Shown: positions 3,612 to 28,268 of the stretch, one piece after another
Layout of the letters: the number at the start of each line of letters is the position of its first letter
How positions within the stretch are numbered: position 1 is the first letter of the stretch
Notes under the pieces: generated by a model
What the model was told of the DNA's origin: nothing
The model's database searches: none
The model's input: only the letters and a program-made list of their open reading frames with translations
IMG/VR virus record: IMGVR_UViG_3300007735_000701
Span: 1-38,466 of that record
Length of the DNA stretch: 38,466 nucleotides
Strand: one strand, 5' to 3'
DNA from: a virus
Program-made: the position numbers and the translations under genes

Positions 3612-3627
3612 TGTTTATATCCTTTGC

Positions 3628-5337
3628 TTAGGCACCCATCAGCATAAATACTGACGGTGTAGGGTCGGTTACGATTGTTGACCAAGAAGCGGCTGTGCCG
3701 TTCGTGGTTAAATATTTTCCTGCATTGCCAGTCTGTGATGGAAGTGCATTAAGAGTTGTCCACTCAACGCCATCTGCTTGAGCAGAGTTGGCTGTAAGGA
3801 CTTGTCCATTAGTTCCTACTGCTTGGCGAACAAATGTTCCAGAACCAGTAGCAACAATAATATCACCCTTAGTTGTGAGGGCAGTTGCCATAGAGTTAGT
3901 AATGGTTACATCGCCAGATGTTCCTCCACCAGAGATTCCAGTTCCAGCAGTTACACCAGTAATATCTCCAGGGTTTGCTGCTGTCCACTCAAGTCCTGTG
4001 GCAGTTGCTGAGTTAACACTGAGAACATAACCATTGGTTGCTGCAACCGATAGAGGGCTAAATGCGCTAGCACCTGTACCAGCCAGTAACTGACCCTTTG
4101 CAGTAAATGATGCTGCCACTGCTGCTGCAGCAGATGCTGCACTTGTAGCAGCGCTAGCAGCGCTTGTGGCTGCTGCTGTTGCTGAAGTTGCTGCAGAGGA
4201 TGCACTTGTTGCTGCAGCACTGGCTGATGAGGCTGATGCAGTTGCTGAGGTTGCCGATGCTGTAGCAGATGATGCAGATGCTGTTGCGCTATTGGCAGAA
4301 GCCGTAGCAGATGCAGCAGCGCTTGTTGCGCTAGTTGCTGCAGCAGTTGCTGCGTTAGATGCTGTAGTTGCATACCCTGCAATTGTGGCTACTGAGTTGG
4401 CTGCAGTTGTAGCACTGGCTGCTGCACTAGTTGCACTAGTTGCCGCTGCTGTGGCAGAGGCTGCTGCTGATGTAGCAGAAGTTGCTGCTGCCGTTGCTGA
4501 ACTGGCTGAAGTTGTTGCAGATGCCGCCGCTGCAGTTGCACTTGCTGCTGCGCTAGTTGCTGACGTTGCAGCAGCGGTAGCACTTGCTGCAGCACTGGCT
4601 GCAGATGTGGCTGCTGCTGTCGCAGAACCTAGAATGCTATCTACGTAATCCTTAGGAGTAGCAGATGATGCTGACATTCCTGCAGAGGATAGACCAGTGA
4701 TAACTGGTGAACCAGAAATAGTTGGGCTAGTTAAAGTCTTGTTTGTTAGAGTCTGTACTGCTGTTGCAACTACTATCGTACCTGTTGTATTAGGCAGGGT
4801 CAGTGTGTTGTCCTGTGTAGGGTCAACTACTGTCAGGGTAGTTTCAAAGGCATCAGGTGTTGCACCCTCAAAGACGATGCTTGCGTCTACACCAGCACCT
4901 GAGATATTAGGGTTGGTGATTGTAGGGCTTGTAAGGGTCTTATTAGTCAGGGTCTGAGTGTCTGTTGTTCCAACTACAGATGAACCGTTTGAGATGCCGT
5001 GTACGCCCGTAGAAGCCTCGATATGGGTATTGGCTTCGCGGTAGTCACGACCGATAGCCATGTGGCGAACAACAGCACCAGCAGAGTGAGCTTGGGCTGA
5101 TGAACCATCAATGCCTCGGGTAATCGTAAAGGTATTGGTCGATACCGCGGTGGCATCTACAATTTCTTCGATTGCTGTATCTGGGTCGACAACAATCGTG
5201 AAGGTAGTACCAGCAGGAATAGATTGACCGCCGAGTAACGCTGTACCAGACTGGACAACCAATGTAGATGCACCAGCAGTTACCGCACTTGTTAGTGTGG
5301 TCTGCTGTGAGCGAGAGGAGTAGTTGCGTGTTGTCAT
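3628..5337 (-). CDS. Tail fibre with long Ala/Ser/Thr heptad-like repeat
   Basis: A 569-residue protein. The N-terminal 110 residues form a beta-rich head with ITRGIDGSSAQAH and GRDYREANTHIEAS, a type seen at the virion-attached end of phage fibres. Two copies of QTLTNKTLTSPTI (about 128-140 and 195-207) are typical fibre repeats. Residues about 238-410 are almost only Ala, Ser and Thr with a near-seven-residue period (units such as SAAASAT and AAATSAT), which suggests a rod-like trimeric shaft. A C-terminal module with TGVTAGTGISGGGTSGDVTI and GQVLTANSAQADGVEW follows. The repeat creates long false open frames on both strands. It probably forms the main side or tail fibre upstream of the glycine-rich adhesins. 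Confidence 0.85.
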   Translation of the reverse strand: MTTRNYSSRSQQTTLTSAVTAGASTLVVQSGTALLGGQSIPAGTTFTIVVDPDTAIEEIVDATAVSTNTFTITRGIDGSSAQAHSAGAVVRHMAIGRDYREANTHIEASTGVHGISNGSSVVGTTDTQTLTNKTLTSPTITNPNISGAGVDASIVFEGATPDAFETTLTVVDPTQDNTLTLPNTTGTIVVATAVQTLTNKTLTSPTISGSPVITGLSSAGMSASSATPKDYVDSILGSATAAATSAASAAASATAAATSATSAAASATAAAASATTSASSATAAATSATSAAASATAAATSATSAAASATTAANSVATIAGYATTASNAATAAATSATSAAASATASANSATASASSATASATSATASASSASAAATSASSAATSATAAATSAASAATSAASAAAAVAASFTAKGQLLAGTGASAFSPLSVAATNGYVLSVNSATATGLEWTAANPGDITGVTAGTGISGGGTSGDVTITNSMATALTTKGDIIVATGSGTFVRQAVGTNGQVLTANSAQADGVEWTTLNALPSQTGNAGKYLTTNGTAASWSTIVTDPTPSVFMLMGA

Positions 5338-10645: not shown

Positions 10646-11962
10646 CTAGAATTGTCCTACGCTTGATGTCGTAAGACTTGTTTTGTTTGTGCCTGCTGCA
10701 CCACTGAAGGTTGCAACTTCACGAGCGGTAAGTCTTTGACGCTTACGCTGTGCTGATGCAAGACTGTTAAATACTTCTTGCTCAGCTTCTGACTGACCAT
10801 AAGTATCAAGTGTCTTGCCATAGATGTCAGATAGTTTCTCAGCAGTAGGAAGGATATCGGCAATAGTCGCGTAGCCCTTCTGCGCTTCTGCTTGTGAAAC
10901 ACCCTGTGCTGCGAGTTGTTCTGCAACTCCAACACCAGCCGTTAGTCCTTGACGTCCTGCTGCTACACCAATTTCAGATGCTGCAACTTGACGTTCAATC
11001 TTCTGGAACTGCTGCTCTGGGTCAAGCACATAGGCAACAAGGTCTTGCTGACCAATGCCATAGTAGTCGCGTAGTTGCTTTATAATAGCAGGGTCAGCGT
11101 TCTGTACACGCTGGACTGCTGTAACTACGCGGTTAGAAAATTCTGTTGGAGACATATCATTAGCAATAAACTGCTGGACATATGCATCAGTATCAAACTG
11201 CTTCAAGCCGTAGGCACGAAGTACTTGACGATATCCATCCTCTAAGTTAAGGTATTCTGCTGGTTGTAATACAGCAAGTCCCTTAGCGATACGAGTCTGG
11301 TTAGCCTTAAAACGTGTCTTGTATTCTTCTGACTCTTGAAGTGCTAAAGTGATTGTAGACTCAGTTGCACCATCGATAGCCAAGTCTTTAATCTTGTTGA
11401 TAAGACTGCCTAAACCGTACTTCTGAAAGCGGTCAGTTAGAACTGCTACAATAGACTTACGCTGTTGTTCTGCCTGTTTAGCCTTCTCTGCTGCAGCAAG
11501 AGCTGCCTGCTGTGCAGCCAAATCTTGTGCACTCTTCTGTGCATTGGTCAATGTTGCAATTTGTGACTGCAGTGATTGAATCAATGCTAAGACTGCGGGG
11601 TCAGTAATATTCTGTGTATTAGCAGGAGGGTTAACAATAGGGTTAAAAGGAGGATTAATTACAGGCGTGGTTGTTGTTTTAGTTGTGACTACACGCCCAG
11701 TTCCTGGGTCAATAACAGATGTAACTCCTGGTACATTCGCATTAATCTCTGCTGCAGTTTTTGCTGCATTTACAGCAGCATCTAGTTGCGCTTGAGTCTT
11801 ACCAGTATTTCCAACTTTTTTAGTAAAGTAAGAATCCTCTATTGCCTGTGCATCTGCTGCTGCTTTTGCATCTGCATTTGCTTTTGCGGTAGCCGCATCT
11901 TGTGCTTTCTTAGCAGCGGCTGCTGCTAGTCTTGCCTTATTTGCTTCGTCTGCTGCTGCCAT
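10646..11962 (-). CDS. Internal virion-like protein, Ala/Lys-rich coiled coil
   Basis: A 438-residue protein. The first 60 residues are Ala/Lys helix (ADEANKARLAAAAAKKAQDA). A Pro/Thr linker follows (TPVINPPFNPIVNPPANTQN), then a second coiled segment with Gln/Ala repeats (about 130-170), then a globular helical part with FQKYGLGSLINKIKDLAIDG and ALQESEEYKTRFKANQTRIA. It is encoded with three other large helical proteins between portal and scaffold, where podoviruses encode proteins carried inside the capsid and ejected with DNA. Function inferred from this position. Confidence 0.65.
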   Translation of the reverse strand: MAAADEANKARLAAAAAKKAQDAATAKANADAKAAADAQAIEDSYFTKKVGNTGKTQAQLDAAVNAAKTAAEINANVPGVTSVIDPGTGRVVTTKTTTTPVINPPFNPIVNPPANTQNITDPAVLALIQSLQSQIATLTNAQKSAQDLAAQQAALAAAEKAKQAEQQRKSIVAVLTDRFQKYGLGSLINKIKDLAIDGATESTITLALQESEEYKTRFKANQTRIAKGLAVLQPAEYLNLEDGYRQVLRAYGLKQFDTDAYVQQFIANDMSPTEFSNRVVTAVQRVQNADPAIIKQLRDYYGIGQQDLVAYVLDPEQQFQKIERQVAASEIGVAAGRQGLTAGVGVAEQLAAQGVSQAEAQKGYATIADILPTAEKLSDIYGKTLDTYGQSEAEQEVFNSLASAQRKRQRLTAREVATFSGAAGTNKTSLTTSSVGQF

Positions 11963-21079: not shown

Positions 21080-22948
21080 TTATCCGTAAGTATCAACCCA
21101 TTGTTCGGCAAAAGCCTCATCAAGGTTGAGTGACATGCGTTGTTGTTTTTGTGCCCTGGTTGCCCAGCGGTTTGTTTGGTACTGACTGATTTGTGAAGAC
21201 TGTTGCATCAACTCGCGTATGCGGATGATTGCAAACCATAAAGCCATCACGCAGTCAGTTGGATTCTTAGTATCTGGTTTCCAAGTAATCAGTTGCTGTA
21301 CAAGAGACTTAAGTCCCTCAGAGCCTTCGTTGCTTGGTAGTTCGATTAAACCATTATCTTGATAGCGACCATCATGCATAGTACCGAAAAGGCTAGACAT
21401 AGATGCCACACCAAAAGATGTGTCCCACTTGTTCTTACCAGTAAAGTGTGAGTTAAGCTGACAACCATAGGTTGCGAGATAGTTACGCAGGTCAGTATCC
21501 ATAGCGTAGTACTTCTGGTGTGCGTTAATCTCAACACGAAACTCTTGCGGATGATATCTCTCGACCCATTCACGAATCAGAGCATTTTCCTTTTGAGGAG
21601 TAGGGTCTGACATATTGACGCAGTCAAGTACATAAATTTTACCATCATCGCGGTTGTAAGATACAGCCACGAACGCTGAACGTCCAGATACCGCAGGGTC
21701 AAAACCAATTACTGTGTAGGTTGAGTTGCCACTACGCGGGTGCCCTGGAGCACCTGGTTTAAGCGGTCCGCGCTTTCGCATACCGTTGACACATCCAGCA
21801 ACTGCTGTTGGCGAGAATATAGAATCGGACTGTACGTCTTCTTGCTGGTAGACCATAGCCCAAACAGATGGCGCAACCTCAGAGCGGCGCGTAAAGAGCG
21901 AGGGTCCATCCCATTTCGGATAAAGTCCATTTTCGTCAGGCTCATCAATCTCGTTCTCCTGCAGTGTGGTCTTAGGCCACAGCGTCTTCCAGTTATCAGG
22001 CTTCTCGTCAAACTGAAGTACGGCAGGCATTGCAAAGTAAGTAAAGGGTGATTTGCCACCAGACCACTGCTGAGGGTCACGGAGCATTTTGTATAGGTCA
22101 ATTGGTGCAACTCGAGTGCCAACGATAATTAATTTACCATGTCGTCCAAGACGTGTAATAACTTCTTTTTGAATCCACTCGAGCTGCTTTTCCCACTCGT
22201 GAGCGTTGGAGCCCATGACAGCGTCGTCGATTATAATTAGGTCAGCACGTGCACCGTAAATCTGGGAGCCCATACCTAGGGCTTGAACCGTAGGGTCCTT
22301 CTCGCCAGAGTCGCGGCCTGTACCTAAGTAAATCATGTCGGCAGACCATTGTGTTGAATCCGCCTTGTATCCACCGTTGGGGCCGAAGGCCACCTGTAAC
22401 TTGGTGTAGGCTGGGTGGGAAAGTCTAGTTTTAATCGCCCCAAGGAACTTGCGGGCCATACCCTGAGTCTTGGAAACAATGATGACTCGGGCGTTAGGAT
22501 TAGTCACAATCTTGTAGACGACGTAGTTAGTCGTGATGACTGTGGACTTGGCGTGCTCAGGAGGCACGTTAATCAGGACACGGTTGTCGTTGCCTGGCTC
22601 GTAGGTCATGGCTGGGTCTAACCAGCGGGGCTCGCGGCCCTCAATCAAATCTACCCAGTCAAGGTGATGCTCGAAGAGCTTTGTGTCTAGGAACTGCTCA
22701 GAGAAGTCGGGGAAGGATATATCGCCCAGTTCCTTCAAATCGGTCTTGATGCCTTTACCCTCGAGGCGAGCAGCCTCGGCGCGGGTCTTAAACTCAGGGT
22801 CAGTTGCACACCATTGGCGGTAAGCCACGTCAGAGCGTCCCACAGAGGCCATAGCCTGGGTAATAGTACTACCTTGGGCTAGTTGCTGGAGGGCTTTCTC
22901 CTGCGCTTCCTTCTTCGGGATATTCTGAATCCCAGGTTTTCTACCCAT
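21080..22948 (-). CDS. terL: Terminase large subunit with N-terminal HTH
   Basis: A 622-residue DNA-packaging motor. Residues about 15-60 form a helix-turn-helix (QGSTITQAMASVGRSDVAYR), of the kind usually found in small terminase subunits or at the start of some large ones. The ATPase shows a Walker A-like loop PPEHAKST (129-136), Walker B LIIIDDA (237-243) and coupling motif VGT (277-279). The nuclease begins at VIGFDPAVSGRSAFVA (Asp417), and later acidic residues are in FRVEINAHQKY. No separate small terminase gene is seen next to it, so the N-terminal domain may do DNA recognition. The ATG at 22948 follows a GGGGATTAACTG leader. It is the first gene of the late operon. Confidence 0.92.
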   Translation of the reverse strand: MGRKPGIQNIPKKEAQEKALQQLAQGSTITQAMASVGRSDVAYRQWCATDPEFKTRAEAARLEGKGIKTDLKELGDISFPDFSEQFLDTKLFEHHLDWVDLIEGREPRWLDPAMTYEPGNDNRVLINVPPEHAKSTVITTNYVVYKIVTNPNARVIIVSKTQGMARKFLGAIKTRLSHPAYTKLQVAFGPNGGYKADSTQWSADMIYLGTGRDSGEKDPTVQALGMGSQIYGARADLIIIDDAVMGSNAHEWEKQLEWIQKEVITRLGRHGKLIIVGTRVAPIDLYKMLRDPQQWSGGKSPFTYFAMPAVLQFDEKPDNWKTLWPKTTLQENEIDEPDENGLYPKWDGPSLFTRRSEVAPSVWAMVYQQEDVQSDSIFSPTAVAGCVNGMRKRGPLKPGAPGHPRSGNSTYTVIGFDPAVSGRSAFVAVSYNRDDGKIYVLDCVNMSDPTPQKENALIREWVERYHPQEFRVEINAHQKYYAMDTDLRNYLATYGCQLNSHFTGKNKWDTSFGVASMSSLFGTMHDGRYQDNGLIELPSNEGSEGLKSLVQQLITWKPDTKNPTDCVMALWFAIIRIRELMQQSSQISQYQTNRWATRAQKQQRMSLNLDEAFAEQWVDTYG

Positions 22949-23035
22949 CAGTTAATCCCCTAATTTACAGTCATTTAACGCTAGCCGATTAACGGCATAA
23001 TTGTCCCATATATATAATATATTATATAATATATA

Positions 23036-23089
23036 GGAGTCGCGGAGTCTTAAACGGAGCGACTCCGTATATGTATTTCTATACATATA
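23036..23089. repeat. Nested and alternative hairpins upstream of terminase
   Basis: GGAGTCGC (23036-23043) can pair with GCGACTCC (23059-23066). The overlapping segment ACGGAG-CGA-CTCCGT (23054-23068) forms a second perfect stem that excludes the first. Directly beside it TATATGTAT-TTCT-ATACATATA (23068-23089) forms a 9-bp stem. Mutually exclusive stems in the leader of the late operon are typical of attenuation-like control or an origin structure; which of these applies is not decided by sequence. Confidence 0.6.
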
Positions 23090-23152
23090 AGATAACCTGT
23101 TCAAATCGTAAAAGCGAACACATTATATCAAAATATTTTTATTTATTATAAA

Positions 23153-23168
23153 AGCCCTGGTCAGGGCT
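23153..23168 (-). terminator. Leftward rho-independent terminator-like hairpin
   Basis: AGCCCT-GGTC-AGGGCT is a GC-rich 6-bp stem. Read leftward it is followed by TTTTATAATAAAT, a usable U-rich tail. It would stop leftward transcription entering from the early control region before the terminase gene, insulating the late operon. Confidence 0.55.
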
Positions 23169-23247: not shown

Positions 23248-23362
23248 TCGAACATGTTTTTAATCATGTGGGGTCAAAGAATTGTCGATAAATCTACAAA
23301 GAGACAAAGAGATAAGTCGATAAGGGTATTTATGGATTAGCCGACTATCCCCCAAGACCCTA

Positions 23363-23500
23363 TTCTCAGCCGACTCTCAGTTAATTCTCAGGAAACTAGG
23401 GGGCTAATAATTCTCAGATAATTCTCAGCAAACTCTCAGACTTTACAAGGTGTGACCTGCGTCACAGTAGACTCTCAGACTTCTCTCAGGAAACTCTCAG
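23363..23500 (+). repeat. Nine YTCTCAG direct repeats in three 11-bp-spaced triplets (iteron-like)
   Basis: Copies begin at 23363, 23374, 23385; 23411, 23422, 23433; and 23472, 23483, 23494. All have the same orientation, all match TTCTCAG or CTCTCAG, and within each triplet the spacing is exactly 11 bp (7-base repeat plus 4 variable bases). Triplet gaps are 26 and 39 bp, start to start. Spacing near one helical turn places all copies of a triplet on one face of DNA, as in iterons or cooperative regulator arrays. The binding protein is unknown. Confidence 0.9.
23451..23466. promoter_or_regulatory. CRP/GlxR-type operator 1 (TGTGA-N6-TCACA)
   Basis: TGTGACCTGCGTCACA is a perfect match to the consensus of CRP-family regulators, including actinobacterial GlxR and Mycobacterium CRP. 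It lies between repeat triplets 2 and 3, centred about 110 bases before the predicted start of the promoter at 23533. Binding by a host cAMP-dependent regulator is inference. Confidence 0.6.
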
Positions 23501-23506
23501 TAAAGG

Positions 23507-23522
23507 TGTGATGTACTTCACA
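23507..23522. promoter_or_regulatory. CRP/GlxR-type operator 2 (TGTGA-N6-TCACA)
   Basis: TGTGATGTACTTCACA, extended by one more pair (GTGTGA..TCACAC), starts 56 bp after operator 1 and 10 bp before the -35 of the first early promoter; its centre is near -53. Both operators share the left flank AAGGTGTGA. A CRP-like activator or repressor here would control early transcription. Confidence 0.65.
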
Positions 23523-23532
23523 CGATTTGGAC

Positions 23533-23561
23533 TTGACACGCCTAGCCTCATGGGGTATAGT
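23533..23561 (+). promoter_or_regulatory. Early promoter P1, sigma-70 type
   Basis: TTGACA (23533-23538), a 17-bp spacer and TATAGT (23556-23561): consensus -35 and 5 of 6 at -10. It lies directly after operator 2 and the repeat triplets and points into the early block. Confidence 0.75.
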
Positions 23562-23884: not shown

Positions 23885-24190
23885 TTGACCTATAACCCTT
23901 ACGGGGGTTTAGGTAGCATAGTCGTAACGCCACGCAAGGTTCAGGCAACCGATAGACGCTTGGGCACACAAGGCGCACGACTAACCGATACCAAGCATGG
24001 TAAAGCGGTACGCATTAAGCGCACACGCACACGCCATGCGGTAACGACCAACCGACCAAAGGTTGAGCGTGTGCTACCGACCCTTAGCGACCAAGAGCAA
24101 GAGCGTATCGCTCGCGCCCTAGCACTAGCCGAACGCGAACGCGACTTCCGCGCCTCGCTCCCTAGCGTCCACATAGACGCGAACGATTAA
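23885..24190 (+). CDS. Unknown basic early protein
   Basis: A 101-residue protein read from a TTG at 23885, preceded at good distance by GAGAGGAT; no ATG in frame gives comparable length. It starts MTYNPYGGLGSIVVTPRKVQ, is rich in Arg and Lys (AVRIKRTRTRHAVTTNRPKV), and ends with an acidic-basic helix (SDQEQERIARALALAERERD). The second half uses more GC-rich codons (GCG, CGC) than its neighbours, which may indicate separate origin. As the first gene behind the tandem promoters it is a candidate host-takeover or DNA-binding protein. Not recognised. Confidence 0.7.
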   Translation: MTYNPYGGLGSIVVTPRKVQATDRRLGTQGARLTDTKHGKAVRIKRTRTRHAVTTNRPKVERVLPTLSDQEQERIARALALAERERDFRASLPSVHIDAND

Positions 24191-24196
24191 GAATTA

Positions 24197-24245
24197 GCCA
24201 CGCCCGACTGTGGGGGTAGGTCTAGGTTCGAGCCCTAGCGTGGCA
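24197..24245 (+). other. tRNA-like remnant: acceptor and T arm without D arm
   Basis: CTAGG-TTCGAGC-CCTAG (24222-24238) is a perfect T arm with the invariant TTCGA loop. GCCACG (24197-24202) pairs with CGTGGC (24239-24244) as a 6-bp acceptor stem. Only 19 bases lie between the acceptor strand and the T arm, too few for both D and anticodon arms; they include CGACTGT, as in many Asn-type anticodon loops, and an AGGT like a variable loop. It is not a functional canonical tRNA. Either a decayed tRNA gene or a fragment acquired from a host tRNA 3' end. Confidence 0.55.
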
Positions 24246-24249
24246 CGAC

Positions 24250-24278
24250 TTGACAAGCCGTCAAGCCTATGGTAAGAT
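24250..24278 (+). promoter_or_regulatory. Early promoter P5
   Basis: TTGACA (24250-24255), a 17-bp spacer and TAAGAT (24273-24278), immediately after the tRNA-like element. The -35 again lies in a GACTTGACAAG context. It is suitably placed for the gene at 24307, whose ribosome site GAGAGAGG lies in the short leader. Confidence 0.7.
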
Positions 24279-24306
24279 ACTCTTATCATACAGAGAGAGG
24301 TTAGAC

Positions 24307-24447
24307 ATGACACTATCAACGAGTGACATGTTCGCACTAATGATAGCCTTGCTATCGGTGAACATGGTACTATTAGTAGCGTTTCGTAGAGTCTATGTGT
24401 TAGAGCGTAGATTACGCAGATACAAAGGCTACTATGACGCACGATAA
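24307..24447 (+). CDS. Small single-pass membrane protein
   Basis: A 46-residue protein from the ATG at 24307 (GAGAGAGG upstream). A longer frame starting at a TTG inside promoter P5 is rejected. It begins MTLSTSDMFALMIALLSVNM, so residues about 8-26 form a membrane helix, followed by a strongly basic tail (RRVYVLERRLRRYKGYY). By the positive-inside rule the tail would be cytoplasmic. Early small membrane proteins often act on host functions or superinfection; no specific role can be named. Confidence 0.65.
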   Translation: MTLSTSDMFALMIALLSVNMVLLVAFRRVYVLERRLRRYKGYYDAR

Positions 24448-24622
24448 CCTATTGCTAGACCTTACAATGCGTGAGGTCGAGGTAATCCGCATGGCTCTAC
24501 GCCTACAAGAGGATACCCATAAGCGCAACGACTTCCCTAGCCTAGTGCTAGAGACTCAGACCCTGCGCTCCAAAATTGCAGACGCAATTATAGATAACGC
24601 TAAAGAATTGACAAAGGCTTAG
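24434..24622 (+). CDS. Small helical early protein
   Basis: A 62-residue protein whose ATG overlaps the end of the membrane protein gene by 14 bases; AAGG lies just upstream. It is one or two amphipathic helices (MREVEVIRMALRLQEDTHKR, then VLETQTLRSKIADAIIDNAK). No known motif. The following promoter P6 lies within its 3' end (24608-24622). Confidence 0.65.
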   Translation: MTHDNLLLDLTMREVEVIRMALRLQEDTHKRNDFPSLVLETQTLRSKIADAIIDNAKELTKA

Positions 24623-24636
24623 AGACATGCTATACT
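24608..24636 (+). promoter_or_regulatory. Early promoter P6 for the amidoligase operon
   Basis: TTGACA (24608-24613), a 17-bp spacer and TATACT (24631-24636). The best-formed promoter of the series with P1. The predicted start near 24643 gives a short leader carrying AGAGGGGG before the ATG at 24667. Confidence 0.75.
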
Positions 24637-24666
24637 ACGACTATACAACGAGAGGGGGTGAGATAC

Positions 24667-25956
24667 ATGAAAGATGATGATGAGACTATCGTATGTGATA
24701 CATGCAGTAGCACTATCGAGTCGGGTGATGAGTTAGTGCTCGATGGTACGGCATACTGTACCGAGTGCGTGTTTAGTTGCTACCAATGCAACGACATACG
24801 CGACATGGAGGATAATGTCTCAGTCGGTGGCGATTTGTGGTGCCATAACTGCGCTAGTTACTGTGAGCGTTGTGATGACGGCATGTCAAATGACGATAAT
24901 CACACAGTAGATAACGAGTCATGGTGTCAGTATTGCACAGAGAATTACGCATACTACTGCGAGAATTGCTGTGAGACATCATCAGAGAGTACAACCTATG
25001 TTAGTGATACACCATACTGTGAGTCGTGCTTCTCCGATAATTGCTACTACTGTGATGACTGTAACGACTCATACCATAACGATTACCCTTGCGAGTGTCG
25101 TGAGAGCGATAGTGTAGAGGGTAAGTGTTGTCGTGGCTTCCGCGCAAGCGGTACTATTCACGATTACTCATGCAAGCCAGCACCTATGTTTAAGGGTGTT
25201 AGCAAGCACAAGATGTATCTCGGCTTTGAGTTAGAGACAGAGATGAGAGATGTGGAACGCGCCTCGCGGTTTGCGTCTGCTAATCTCGAGGGTATTGCAT
25301 ACCTAAAGCATGACGGAAGTATTAGTAGTGGGTTCGAGATAGTAACTCACCCACATACACACCAACAGTATCGAGAGAACAGCGCGGTACTGTGGGATAC
25401 TATTAACAAGTTACGACATGAGCATAATGCTAGGTCATGGGATACAGATACCTGTGGCTTACACATACACCTAAGTCGTGACGGGTTTAGTAGTGGCGCA
25501 CACTTGCACAGGTTTATAGCCTTTGTGTACAAGAACGCCCCACAGATGATGAAGTTTGCTGGTCGCAAGACTAGGTTCGCTAGGTTCAATGATGTCTATA
25601 CCTTTGATGAGTATGACAGACCTGTGTTCTCAATCAAGCACAAGGTCGGACACCCGAACATGAACAGTAGTGAACGCTACTCAGCGGTCAATACTCAGAA
25701 CGAAAACACCATAGAATTGCGCTTCTTCAGAGGCACAATGAAAACAAGTGGTGTGTTAAGTGCCCTAGACTTAGCACAAGCCATGGTAGAATACACTAGG
25801 GAACTACGACTAGATGATGTAAAGTTAGGCGCATTATCTTGGGAGTGGTTCGCTGACTATGTAGTGTCTAACAATGGACTCTATCCCGACCTATACTCTA
25901 GGTTGGACAAGATACAATCAGTGGACATCAACAAGCGAGAATTCGCTAATGCGTAG
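24667..25956 (+). CDS. Amidoligase-like (COOH-NH2 ligase fold) protein with LIM-like zinc N-terminus
   Basis: A 429-residue protein from the ATG at 24667 (AGAGGGGG eight bases before; a GTG at 24658 is too close to it). The first 155 residues hold about 30 Cys in CXXC pairs, like repeated LIM or treble-clef zinc fingers. From about 183 on it matches the glutamine-synthetase-fold amidoligase family (Amidoligase_2): GFELETEM (186), KHDGSISSGFEIVTHP (214-229), CGLHIHLS (263-270), and ELRFFRGTM (350). These Glu and His residues are the expected metal and ATP ligands. The next gene is a class II glutamine amidotransferase, which could supply ammonia. Proposed role: ATP-dependent amide-bond formation on a protein, peptide or cell-wall precursor. 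Family call good; substrate unknown. Confidence 0.82.
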   Translation: MKDDDETIVCDTCSSTIESGDELVLDGTAYCTECVFSCYQCNDIRDMEDNVSVGGDLWCHNCASYCERCDDGMSNDDNHTVDNESWCQYCTENYAYYCENCCETSSESTTYVSDTPYCESCFSDNCYYCDDCNDSYHNDYPCECRESDSVEGKCCRGFRASGTIHDYSCKPAPMFKGVSKHKMYLGFELETEMRDVERASRFASANLEGIAYLKHDGSISSGFEIVTHPHTHQQYRENSAVLWDTINKLRHEHNARSWDTDTCGLHIHLSRDGFSSGAHLHRFIAFVYKNAPQMMKFAGRKTRFARFNDVYTFDEYDRPVFSIKHKVGHPNMNSSERYSAVNTQNENTIELRFFRGTMKTSGVLSALDLAQAMVEYTRELRLDDVKLGALSWEWFADYVVSNNGLYPDLYSRLDKIQSVDINKREFANA

Positions 25957-25968
25957 GGAGATGATACA

Positions 25969-26778
25969 ATGTGCTTACTTATAGTGTGCGAGCCAAACTC
26001 CACACCTAACAAAGCAGACCTACACGCTGGTGCGTGTAGTAATCCACATGGATTTGGATTTGCTATTCATGCTGGTGATAGGATTATCTCCGAGCGTAGC
26101 ATGTCTGCTAAGAAATCTATCAAACGCTTCTTGGAATTACGCAAGCAATTCCCTGACGGCTACGCCATGTGGCATGCACGATACGCCACTCATGGTGTTA
26201 AGAACGAACAGAACTGTCACCCATTTGTGGTTGGCGGTGATGAGCGTACTTACCTAGCACATAATGGTGTGCTTGACATAAGTATCGGCAAGTCTGACAA
26301 GCGTAGTGATACGCGTGTCTTTGCTGAGGATACACTACCTAGAATTGGTGGCGTGTCCGCACTTGATGATGATAATGTATGGATTATGGCTGAGACTTGG
26401 GCTAAGGGTAGCAAGATTGCTATCATAACATGTGACCCAGCAGCCAAGCACCCTATGTATCTACTCAATGAGTCGGCTGGTTCATGGGATAACGAAGGTA
26501 TTTGGTGGAGTAATCAAAGCCACAAGCGTAGCCTATACTCCGCACCTACCAAAGTTATGCCCATAGAACAAGACGACGAACTGTGGGACTACGCAGTAGA
26601 CTTAGACTTAGATGTCTGCCCCTACTGCGAGTCTGCCACAGATTTGCACGACAACCCATACTACTGTAACATGTGTAAGTCATGCTTTGATTGTTCAATC
26701 ATGATAGATGACTGCCTATGTTACACACCAAACAAAGATTGGCAAAGCAAACGGAGCCTTGCCGATTTCCTATACTAG
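25969..26778 (+). CDS. Class II glutamine amidotransferase with C-terminal zinc ribbon
   Basis: A 269-residue Ntn-hydrolase. The sequence starts Met-Cys, so Cys2 becomes the N-terminal nucleophile. It is followed by NPHGFGFAIH (25-34), HARYATHG (69-76, glutamine-binding Arg), the NCHPF block (82-86), the HNGVL loop (98-102) and SDTRVFAE (113-120), all in the order of the class II amidotransferase domain. The last 60 residues carry a zinc-ribbon-like Cys set (CPYCES, CNMCKSC, CSIMIDDCLC). No synthase domain is fused, so a separate acceptor enzyme is expected, and the amidoligase 12 bases upstream is the obvious one. Ribosome site GGGAGATGATACA. Ammonia transfer to that partner is inference. 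Confidence 0.88.
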   Translation: MCLLIVCEPNSTPNKADLHAGACSNPHGFGFAIHAGDRIISERSMSAKKSIKRFLELRKQFPDGYAMWHARYATHGVKNEQNCHPFVVGGDERTYLAHNGVLDISIGKSDKRSDTRVFAEDTLPRIGGVSALDDDNVWIMAETWAKGSKIAIITCDPAAKHPMYLLNESAGSWDNEGIWWSNQSHKRSLYSAPTKVMPIEQDDELWDYAVDLDLDVCPYCESATDLHDNPYYCNMCKSCFDCSIMIDDCLCYTPNKDWQSKRSLADFLY

Positions 26779-26789
26779 AGAGGTAACAA

Positions 26790-27050
26790 ATGAACGACAC
26801 AATTCTACATCTCGCTGAGGAACTACGCGTTATCGCAGACGAGATTTCATACAACGCAATTGACACATCAAGTGACTACCCAAAGCGTGGCACTATTGTG
26901 AAAGCACTACCTTCACAGACACGCTTCAAGCCTAAGTCGGTTTGGGTATCGCTAGGCAATGGCACATACAAGCACCTTACTGGTAGCAAGGGTCTCATCA
27001 CTACACATGAGCGACTCAATGGCTACACAGAAGTAGTATTCGAAGCGTAA
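26790..27050 (+). CDS. Unknown early protein of the amidoligase operon
   Basis: An 86-residue protein 11 bases after the amidotransferase, with AGAGAGG before its ATG. An N-terminal helix (HLAEELRVIADEISYNAIDT) precedes a beta-rich part with a Lys-rich strand set (RFKPKSVWVSLGNGTYKHLT) and VFEA at the end. It reads like a small SH3-like or OB-like barrel, but I do not recognise it. Confidence 0.65.
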   Translation: MNDTILHLAEELRVIADEISYNAIDTSSDYPKRGTIVKALPSQTRFKPKSVWVSLGNGTYKHLTGSKGLITTHERLNGYTEVVFEA

Positions 27051-27107
27051 TACATGTCCTGAGTATGACATTAAACTGCTCACTATTATTGACAGAGAGG
27101 ATAGACA

Positions 27108-27260
27108 ATGAGTACACTATGGAAAGCAGAACTAACTGATGAGTTAATCGCTCATCTAACCGACGACGACAAGGTACGTATACGCAGAGACCTAGACATG
27201 GCAGTCGAGGCTATCTGTAATGAGTATGAAGTAGGGAGGGAATACAAACATGAGTTATGA
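27108..27260 (+). CDS. Short acidic early protein (50 residues)
   Basis: ATG at 27108 after GAGAGGATAGACA, stop TGA at 27258-27260. The product begins MSTLWKAELTDELIAHLTDD and continues DKVRIRRDLDMAVEAICNEY. It is helical and mixed-charge. The stop overlaps the ATG of the next gene by several bases, which supports translation. Function unknown. Confidence 0.6.
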   Translation: MSTLWKAELTDELIAHLTDDDKVRIRRDLDMAVEAICNEYEVGREYKHEL

Positions 27261-27435
27261 AATTACGGAAACAAAGTATGAGTGGCAACTTGGTGACTAC
27301 CTAGTACGCACTTATGTAGGCGAGTATGGTATACACACAGAGTGGTTTAAGGGCGACTATGTGTTAGATAGTAATGATGTACCAGATACTGTAATGGCAG
27401 AGTACGAGAACCTATGTCGAGAGGAGGGGCTATGA
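27250..27435 (+). CDS. Small early protein, unknown
   Basis: A 61-residue acidic protein (MSYEITETKYEWQLGDYLVR). The aromatic-rich beta pattern with YVGEYGIHTEWFKGDYVLDS suggests a compact beta sheet, followed by a helix (VMAEYENLCREEG). ATG at 27250 overlaps the preceding gene, and GGGAGGG lies upstream. Stop overlaps the next ATG (ATGA). Confidence 0.65.
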   Translation: MSYEITETKYEWQLGDYLVRTYVGEYGIHTEWFKGDYVLDSNDVPDTVMAEYENLCREEGL

Positions 27436-27539
27436 GTTACGAGCCACCACTTGACGACGACATAGCATTAGGGTATGATGATGAAGAAGAACTCGACGAG
27501 GAATTCGACGAGATGACAGAGATAGCACTAGAGAGATAG
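27432..27539 (+). CDS. Very short acidic protein (35 residues)
   Basis: ATG at 27432 inside an ATGA overlap with the previous stop; GAGGAGGGG precedes it. The product is highly acidic: MSYEPPLDDDIALGYDDEEE and then LDEEFDEMTEIALER. DNA-mimic-like charge is notable but the length is too short for a confident role. The stop TAG is followed by the ribosome site of the WhiB gene. Confidence 0.5.
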   Translation: MSYEPPLDDDIALGYDDEEELDEEFDEMTEIALER

Positions 27540-27549
27540 GAGATAGAGT

Positions 27550-27876
27550 ATGCAAGGTCTATGTACAGGTCATGAGAACCCTGACCTATGGTTCAGCGAG
27601 TCTATTGACAGCGACGGCGACAGCGGTTATGTAAATGAGAACAGCGCAGAATACAAACAGCGTATCGCTAATGTAAAGACCGCGCTATCTATCTGCAACG
27701 CATGTCCCAGCAAGGCTGAATGCTTTGATGAGGGTATGAAGCGAGAGAATTTAGACAATGGAATTTGGGGAGGCTCTCTACCAGGCGAGCGTATCATACT
27801 TGCAGATGTTTCAATAACATGGAACAATCGTAGGCAGATGATTAACTTCGCAAACAGAGTAAGGGCAACTATCTAA
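27550..27876 (+). CDS. WhiB-family Fe-S transcription regulator
   Basis: A 108-residue protein with the WhiB signature: four Cys at 5, 49, 52 and 58 (C-X43-CXXC-X5-C, [4Fe-4S] ligands) and the turn GIWGG (71-75). A short basic end (NNRRQMINFANRVRATI) may contact DNA. Trp14 and Phe15 lie after an NPDLWF motif, as in other members. WhiB proteins are confined to actinobacteria and their phages and bind the primary sigma factor. Phage members such as TM4 WhiB can repress host whiB genes. Here it sits early, before a secreted transglycosylase. It probably redirects host or phage transcription; the direction is not shown by sequence. Confidence 0.92.
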   Translation: MQGLCTGHENPDLWFSESIDSDGDSGYVNENSAEYKQRIANVKTALSICNACPSKAECFDEGMKRENLDNGIWGGSLPGERIILADVSITWNNRRQMINFANRVRATI

Positions 27877-28268
27877 TGAAGTCAATAGCATTCTTGCTAC
27901 TCGTAGTAGTAGCCTTTCTATTAACCGATAACTCAAAGACAGCCACGGACACAACAGACAAAGGCGTGCAAGTCTCTTGGAGCATGGAAGATAGCAAGGC
28001 ATACGCTAGAGACAAACTTAAAGAGTGGCAAGATAATCAGTGGTCTTGTCTCAACAGATTGTGGGGTAAGGAATCCGCATGGAATCCTGATGCATTCAAT
28101 CCTGTTCGTGTGATGGGGAAGCACGCGGGCGGTATCCCTCAACTGTTGGGACTTGACCCTGACACACCAGCACCACGTCAGATAGAGCGTGGGCTTGACT
28201 ACATTTACTATAGATACGGCACACCATGCGACGCATGGTTACATTGGAAAAGGAATGGTAACTACTAA
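27876..28268 (+). CDS. Secreted transglycosylase-like (SLT fold) protein
   Basis: A 130-residue protein that starts MKSIAFLLLVVVAFLLTDNS, a signal peptide or anchor. The mature part resembles the short lysozyme-like transglycosylase fold: CLNRLWGKESAWNPDAFNP with catalytic Glu66, AGGIPQLLG in place of the usual A(Y/W)G(L/I)PQ block, and RQIERGLDYIYYRYGTPCDA followed by a Trp. Cys58 and Cys118 may form a disulphide. The gene overlaps the WhiB stop by one base and the next start by one base. An early, exported muralytic enzyme is unusual because the endolysin is late (35038-35505). Possible roles: wall opening, remodelling or superinfection exclusion. Confidence 0.82.
   Translation: MKSIAFLLLVVVAFLLTDNSKTATDTTDKGVQVSWSMEDSKAYARDKLKEWQDNQWSCLNRLWGKESAWNPDAFNPVRVMGKHAGGIPQLLGLDPDTPAPRQIERGLDYIYYRYGTPCDAWLHWKRNGNY

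Follow-up and report, generated by a model that had tools for sequence, protein, structure and literature searches.

The pho box of E. coli takes the place of the -35 element and ends 10 bp ahead of the -10 element. PhoP of Mycobacterium tuberculosis (Mtb) binds as a tandem dimer to the 7-bp direct repeats TCACAGC, which are separated by a strict 4-bp spacer, and three or four such repeats are bound more tightly than pairs (PMC4832192). Two residues of PhoP, Asn212 and Ser216, contact the third base of the repeat via a water molecule (PMC4832192). PhoP recruits CRP to adjacent promoter sites, and activation needs both proteins (PMC9645806). The use of a host response regulator by phage promoters has been described for cyanophages, in which the Pho boxes of P-SSM2 pstS and of genes of Synechococcus phage S-PM2d are served by host PhoB (PMC10976474).

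In fresh water, few bacteria are as abundant as the acI actinobacteria, and the timing of gene expression in their phages is almost unknown. The viral DNA described here (38,466 bases, called the window below) carries an array of direct repeats upstream of its rightward early genes. As judged from sequence comparisons, the array is likely to be a set of sites for a host PhoP-type regulator which, together with sites for host CRP, would form the upstream control region of the main rightward early promoter.

Structure of the array and its promoter region

On one side of the array is the terminase gene, which runs leftward (21080-22948), and on the other are the early genes, which run rightward (23885-28268, + strand). 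It consists of nine units, each a perfect [CT]TCTCAG on the + strand, which are arranged in three triplets with unit starts 11 bp apart. Triplet 1 (23363-23391, + strand) reads TTCTCAG-CCGA-CTCTCAG-TTAA-TTCTCAG, with units starting at 23363, 23374 and 23385. Triplet 2 (23411-23439, + strand) reads TTCTCAG-ATAA-TTCTCAG-CAAA-CTCTCAG, with starts at 23411, 23422 and 23433, and triplet 3 (23472-23500, + strand) reads CTCTCAG-ACTT-CTCTCAG-GAAA-CTCTCAG, with starts at 23472, 23483 and 23494. The first-pass annotation of this DNA, made from the sequence alone, had reported these nine copies and their 11-bp spacing correctly. The pair YTCTCAG-N4-YTCTCAG occurs six times in the window, each time within the array, and not once in 100 dinucleotide shuffles, so that the spacing is indeed beyond what base composition would give, as had been claimed. 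Pairs at 11 bp are found nowhere else in the 38,466 bases; the scattering of similar triplets over the genome, which the annotation had said would count against its reading, is thus not seen in the window. Single copies of TCTCAG are about as frequent as expected by chance (25 against 23.2), and it is therefore the spacing, not the unit, that is special. There are no further units with one mismatch in 23300-23540. The 4-base spacers had been described as unrelated. Their length stands, but over the 246 spacers of phage arrays positions 2-4 are A-rich, with GAAA the commonest spacer.

Two perfect palindromes of the CRP type, TGTGA-N6-TCACA, are interleaved with the triplets. Palindrome A, TGTGACCTGCGTCACA (23451-23466), lies between triplets 2 and 3. 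Palindrome B, TGTGATGTACTTCACA (23507-23522), begins 6 bp past triplet 3 and ends 10 bp ahead of the -35 element of promoter P1 (23533-23561, + strand; TTGACA-17-TATAGT; predicted start at about 23568). Neither the palindromes nor P1 had been noticed before. The claim that the array lies directly upstream of the early promoters is borne out. Three more promoter-like sequences follow on the + strand: P2 (23631-23659; TTGACA-17-TAAAGT), which has counterparts at similar positions in relatives, P3 (23699-23727; TTGACA-17-TAGTCT) and P4 (23788-23817; TTGACA-18-TACAAT). Inverted repeats resembling ACTTGACAAGT are found at or near the -35 boxes of P1-P4 (23533-23820) and are possible operators of a phage repressor.

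The first open reading frame past the array encodes a small basic protein (23885-24190), for which a protein scan gave no family match. The early genes further include those for an amidoligase-like protein (24658-25956), a class-II glutamine amidotransferase-like protein (25969-26778) and a WhiB-like protein (27550-27876), all on the + strand.

The distances between successive triplets are also of interest. In the window, triplet 2 begins 26 bp (2.5 turns) after the final unit of triplet 1, and 39 bp, measured unit to unit, separate triplets 2 and 3, with the CRP-type site in between. The gaps between arrays, taken over 47 distinct inter-array sequences, cluster at 16, 25-27, 37-40, 46-47 and 56-59 bp. 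The distinct gap values have a best period of 10.6 bp with a half-turn phase (R = 0.55, p ~0.004; R = 0.71 with one hand-chosen gap per spacer type), which suggests that successive arrays tend to be half a turn out of phase (n+0.5 turns) and so to lie on opposite faces, an idea drawn from the very data used for its statistic. It was retested by two further scans. Among the new, unrelated spacers, those of 26 bp (L402, L405, L407 type) agree with it, and those of 23 bp (L401) and 54 bp (L411) are contrary. Because of the latter, placement on opposite faces is a tendency rather than a law.

The host regulator and CRP

The pair pattern was found in 124 of 395 genomes of the actinobacterial class, and a reversed control pattern in 17. 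In one family, the small genomes have the pair immediately ahead of a gene that encodes an OmpR/PhoB-family response regulator, and a histidine kinase gene comes next; the regulator was matched in 98 of the 121 family genomes. The published AcI-852 probe (PMC3699509) has its exact target in 12 of 19 genomes of the family that were tested and in none of 6 outgroup genomes. Going by this probe target, the family is acI.

In all 30 acI-family loci that were read, TTCTCAG-N4-YYCYCAG stands at the promoter of the regulator's own gene. The first unit of this host box is TTCTCAG (CTCTCAG in one locus), the second, at +11, is looser and YYCYCAG-like, and the box ends 22-96 bp ahead of the start codon used. 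A -10-like hexamer, NANNNT, lies exactly 10 bp past the box in 43 of 47 host sites (other offsets, 0-15). This spacing suggests that the host box replaces the -35 element, which is the geometry of a PhoB-type activator and that of the E. coli pho box. The 10-bp spacing from box to -10 belongs to the host sites; the phage arrays precede a full -35/-10 promoter. Further host sites precede an operon for a Rieske-type protein and an HtrA-type protease.

The first-pass annotation knew of no named system with this layout. However, OmpR/PhoB-family boxes are characterised by 7-bp direct repeats separated by 4 bp (PMC4832192), the array has direct repeats of a half-site of about 7 bp at 11-bp intervals, and the motif also precedes the gene of a regulator of this family in the host genomes. 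The annotation's view that the units are cooperative sites of one protein is supported, the sites being predicted ones.

Among solved structures, the closest relative of the acI regulator is Mtb PhoP (290 bits), followed by PrrA (181 bits). The third base of the motif is A in the Mtb repeat TCACAGC and T in TCTCAG of the phages and acI. At the positions of Asn212 and Ser216, all the acI regulators that were read have Gly and Thr, respectively, and the remainder of the recognition helix is nearly unchanged. The changes in the predicted recognition helix would thus fit the change of the third base.

A Crp-family protein was found in 15 of 15 acI-family genomes. Its recognition helix, GASRETVNKALADFA (GASRETVNKALADF in all five proteins read), would match the palindromes. 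The helix GASRETVNKALADF resembles that of Mtb CRP. Perfect TGTGA-N6-TCACA sites are rare in host genomes (2 in 10), too few to define a CRP regulon, and the predicted binding of CRP is for this reason based on the recognition helix and on analogy.

In other actinobacteria the motif has a wider association. In genomes of the mycobacterial type (L313, L314, L315, L318) the pair is found ahead of two genes, one for an MprA-like regulator and one that is sigB-like. Since these genes carry related boxes too, the motif alone names no single regulator outside acI. MprA was considered as a name for the acI box and dropped; the literature gave only a different Corynebacterium consensus, TKTTAAGAAM. 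A scan of named genomes for the triplet gave 100 scattered matches, many of them in tandem repeats or coding DNA, and says little when taken alone, but several of the matches adjoin response-regulator genes. In three records (L173, L225, L234) a triplet is found, in nearly identical contexts, 85 bp ahead of an rbfA-like gene; one of the three is labelled as a Bifidobacterium breve MAG, a label that looks wrong.

Distribution of the arrays among phages

The nearest relatives of the window in the phage collection are the Planktophila phages LanE43AprE7 and AprF5 (E7 and F5 below). Both were isolated on 'Ca. Planktophila', which belongs to the acI order Nanopelagicales (PMC10202952). A search for the triplets in related phage contigs, as proposed in the first-pass annotation, found 86 stretches of the viral collection with the exact triplet pattern and 5 with the reversed control pattern. 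Most of the 86 form one loose protein-sharing group of 71, which includes the window; the others form a group of 9 and smaller groups, for which no shared protein was detected in the DNA compared. Phage arrays reach six units. A six-unit array with inverted copies nearby is present at 150-330 of L025, a 47.6-kb contig that has no detected protein in common with the group of the window.

A comparison of terminase relatives, which were not selected by the YTCTCAG motif, gives a similar picture. An offset of 11 dominates the YTCTCAG spacing in these relatives, with 79 pairs, and three scrambled motifs gave none. Enough upstream DNA for comparison was available in 52 of the relatives, including the window and F5. 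Arrays are present in 20 of the 52, and all 20 have a CRP-type palindrome nearby, compared to 16 of the 32 that have no array (Fisher p ~1e-4, relatedness ignored; the p-values are weakened because relatives are not mutually independent). At distances of up to 300 bp from an array the density of TGTGA-N6-TCACA is 2.15 per kb; elsewhere it is 0.011. The site occupies a fixed place upstream of the -35 element: the distance from its end to TTGACW is exactly 10 bp in 17 distinct phage sequences, and the gap between array and site is 6 bp in several phages.

In the isolates E7 and F5 the corresponding region contains CRP-type sites and no YTCTCAG pair. Relatives that keep the early promoters and lack the repeats, which the first-pass annotation had listed among the findings that would speak against its reading, do exist. 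Since such relatives share the promoters, the arrays form a module that is optional, not a core element. In this comparison the shared framework seems to be the CRP-promoter unit, with arrays that come and go.

Several other elements occur near the arrays of other phages. Direct repeats of GTTCAYC-N4 at 11 bp, similar to the Streptomyces PHO box, are found beside arrays nine times and nowhere else in the loci (L023 at ~3616-3720, L009 at ~11070-11110, L018, L059, L406, L401). Repeats of GTTAYC at 11 bp, perhaps recognised by a further response regulator, for example MtrA, are found seven times near arrays and once elsewhere, and lie downstream of the arrays in L004, L028, L061, L064, L086 and L087. 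SOS-like palindromes, CGAAC-N4-GTTCG, lie between or beside arrays (L020, L007, L008, L009, L049, L059) at a density of 0.40 per kb, compared to 0.008 elsewhere. Clusters of the DnaA-box-like sequence TTATCCACA lie beside arrays in a different phage subgroup (L045, L063, L070, L079, L134), where a nearby origin is conceivable. In L004, L028, L058 and L087 a TATAAT hexamer is located 11 bp past array 1 and before array 2, one base off the activator spacing of the host; it is possibly part of a second regulator-driven promoter, which has decayed in the window.

The enrichment of SOS-like, PHO-box-like, GTTAYC and DnaA-box elements near arrays suggests that the control region is modular and makes use of several host regulators. 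A more general proposal, which we put forward tentatively and which may well prove wrong, is that phages of freshwater actinobacteria build enhancer-like control regions from host operators. PhoP-type arrays on opposite faces of the DNA might be combined in mix-and-match fashion with CRP-type, LexA/SOS-like and PHO-box-like (GTTCAYC-N4) elements and GTTAYC repeats, and the lytic programme might thereby combine, at a single early promoter, several signals of the stress and nutrient state of the host.

Possible roles of the array and comparison with known systems

From the motif, its co-occurrence with CRP-type sites, the geometry of the host box and the conservation of these features, we infer the following sequence of events. 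Each triplet would accommodate three regulator molecules, arranged head to tail along the same face of the DNA with one molecule per 11 bp. CRP would bind between the triplets and beside the -35 element, near position -53.5 of P1. With the host kinase-regulator pair active and cAMP-CRP present, early transcription from P1 would rise, and with it the synthesis of the small proteins and of the amidoligase-like, glutamine amidotransferase-like and WhiB-like ones. The effect on early transcription is most likely activation. The inducing signal is perhaps envelope stress, which is proposed because an HtrA-type protease is among the host targets of the regulator. As the phage units are perfect and the second unit of the host box is usually looser, the phage should be a strong competitor for the regulator. 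All this suggests that, when it switches on its early genes, the virus relies on host sensors to read the state of the cell.

The same two proteins might have the opposite effect, with a complex of regulator and CRP holding the early promoters down in a stressed or starved host, so that early transcription is repressed or delayed. P1 is near consensus and would be strong unaided; it may thus need no activator, and the sites could modulate or repress. Location of the arrays 70-205 bp upstream on alternating faces would also suit a wrapped or looped complex. Nevertheless, repression appears rather unlikely: the host boxes have activator geometry, with the -10-like hexamer exactly 10 bp on in 43 of 47 sites, the fixed position of the CRP-type site 10 bp upstream of the -35 element resembles that of class I activation, and P1 itself is overlapped by nothing. 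It is improbable, too, that the nine perfect boxes, multiplied by replication, serve as a decoy that titrates the host regulator and disarms the stress response. All phage units are perfect, compared to the loose second unit of the host autoregulatory box, and arrays of up to six units occur, as might be expected of a decoy. However, a decoy needs no fixed position, yet the arrays cluster at early promoters and in several phages stand at a fixed 6-bp gap from a CRP-type site that is itself 10 bp from the -35 element.

The first-pass annotation had proposed that the repeats are the iterons of a replication origin, an array for a phage regulator, or both. If they were iterons, a phage initiator or host DnaA would be their partner, and it is true that the repeats adjoin an AT-rich stretch (22985-23160) and that arrays lie near the TTATCCACA clusters in some other phages. 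However, the repeats of an iteron origin should be present wherever that type of replicon replicates, and arrays are missing from 32 of the 52 terminase relatives as well as from E7 and F5, isolates which replicate without them; F5 retains an AT-rich stretch. A cognate Rep initiator should be encoded nearby; the proteins scanned include no initiator, although a DnaB-like helicase and a primase are present. The cumulative GC skew, which the annotation had suggested as a check, has no sharp minimum at 23.4 kb, and the YTCTCAG unit also marks host promoters. An origin at this site is therefore very improbable. Hardly any weight can be given to a regulator encoded by the phage itself. Candidates are at hand nearby in the small basic 23885 product, the WhiB-like protein and a sigma-like protein, but the motif is a conserved box upstream of a regulator gene in host genomes, and the early and replication proteins that were scanned (the WhiB-like and sigma-like proteins, the DnaB-like helicase and the primase among them) include no response-regulator or winged-helix protein and no DNA-binding domain of the response-regulator type.

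Activation by the host PhoP-type regulator and CRP, if correct, gives a concrete link between a viral early switch and host regulators, and predicts the regulon of an uncharacterised acI two-component system. The YTCTCAG-N4 arrays also provide an easy sequence signature for acI phages. What was already known is the action of a host response regulator at cyanophage promoters (PMC10976474), the PhoP boxes and the cooperation of PhoP with CRP in mycobacteria. The actinophage case is new, and no report of such arrays in actinophages was found in the open-licence literature. New as well are the number of boxes and their perfection, the combination of these boxes with CRP-type sites at the main early promoter, the connection with an acI two-component system whose regulon is predicted, and the tendency towards opposite faces.

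The array shares with the iteron origins of plasmids and phages the direct repeats near AT-rich DNA, and differs from them in that its units mark host promoters too and that arrays are dispensable in isolated relatives. The E. coli pho box has a different sequence, CTGTCAT, and the phage arrays lie upstream of a complete -35/-10 promoter. In the cyanophages, as is predicted here, a phage promoter is equipped with boxes for a host response regulator. The cyanophage boxes are single and belong to phosphate-stress genes, whereas the window has nine perfect boxes with CRP-type sites at the main early promoter of an actinobacterial phage, and the signal, unlike that in cyanophages, is probably not phosphate. 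The closest parallel is the Mtb PhoP box, TCACAGC-N4-TCACAGC. It has the same 7-bp direct repeats with an exact 4-bp spacer, triplets are bound well, and a CRP site is close by, as at the promoters co-activated by PhoP and CRP (whiB1, icl1 and umaA). The phage version differs in the T at the third base, with a host regulator that has Gly and Thr in place of Asn212 and Ser216, and in having three triplets instead of one pair, on a phage genome.
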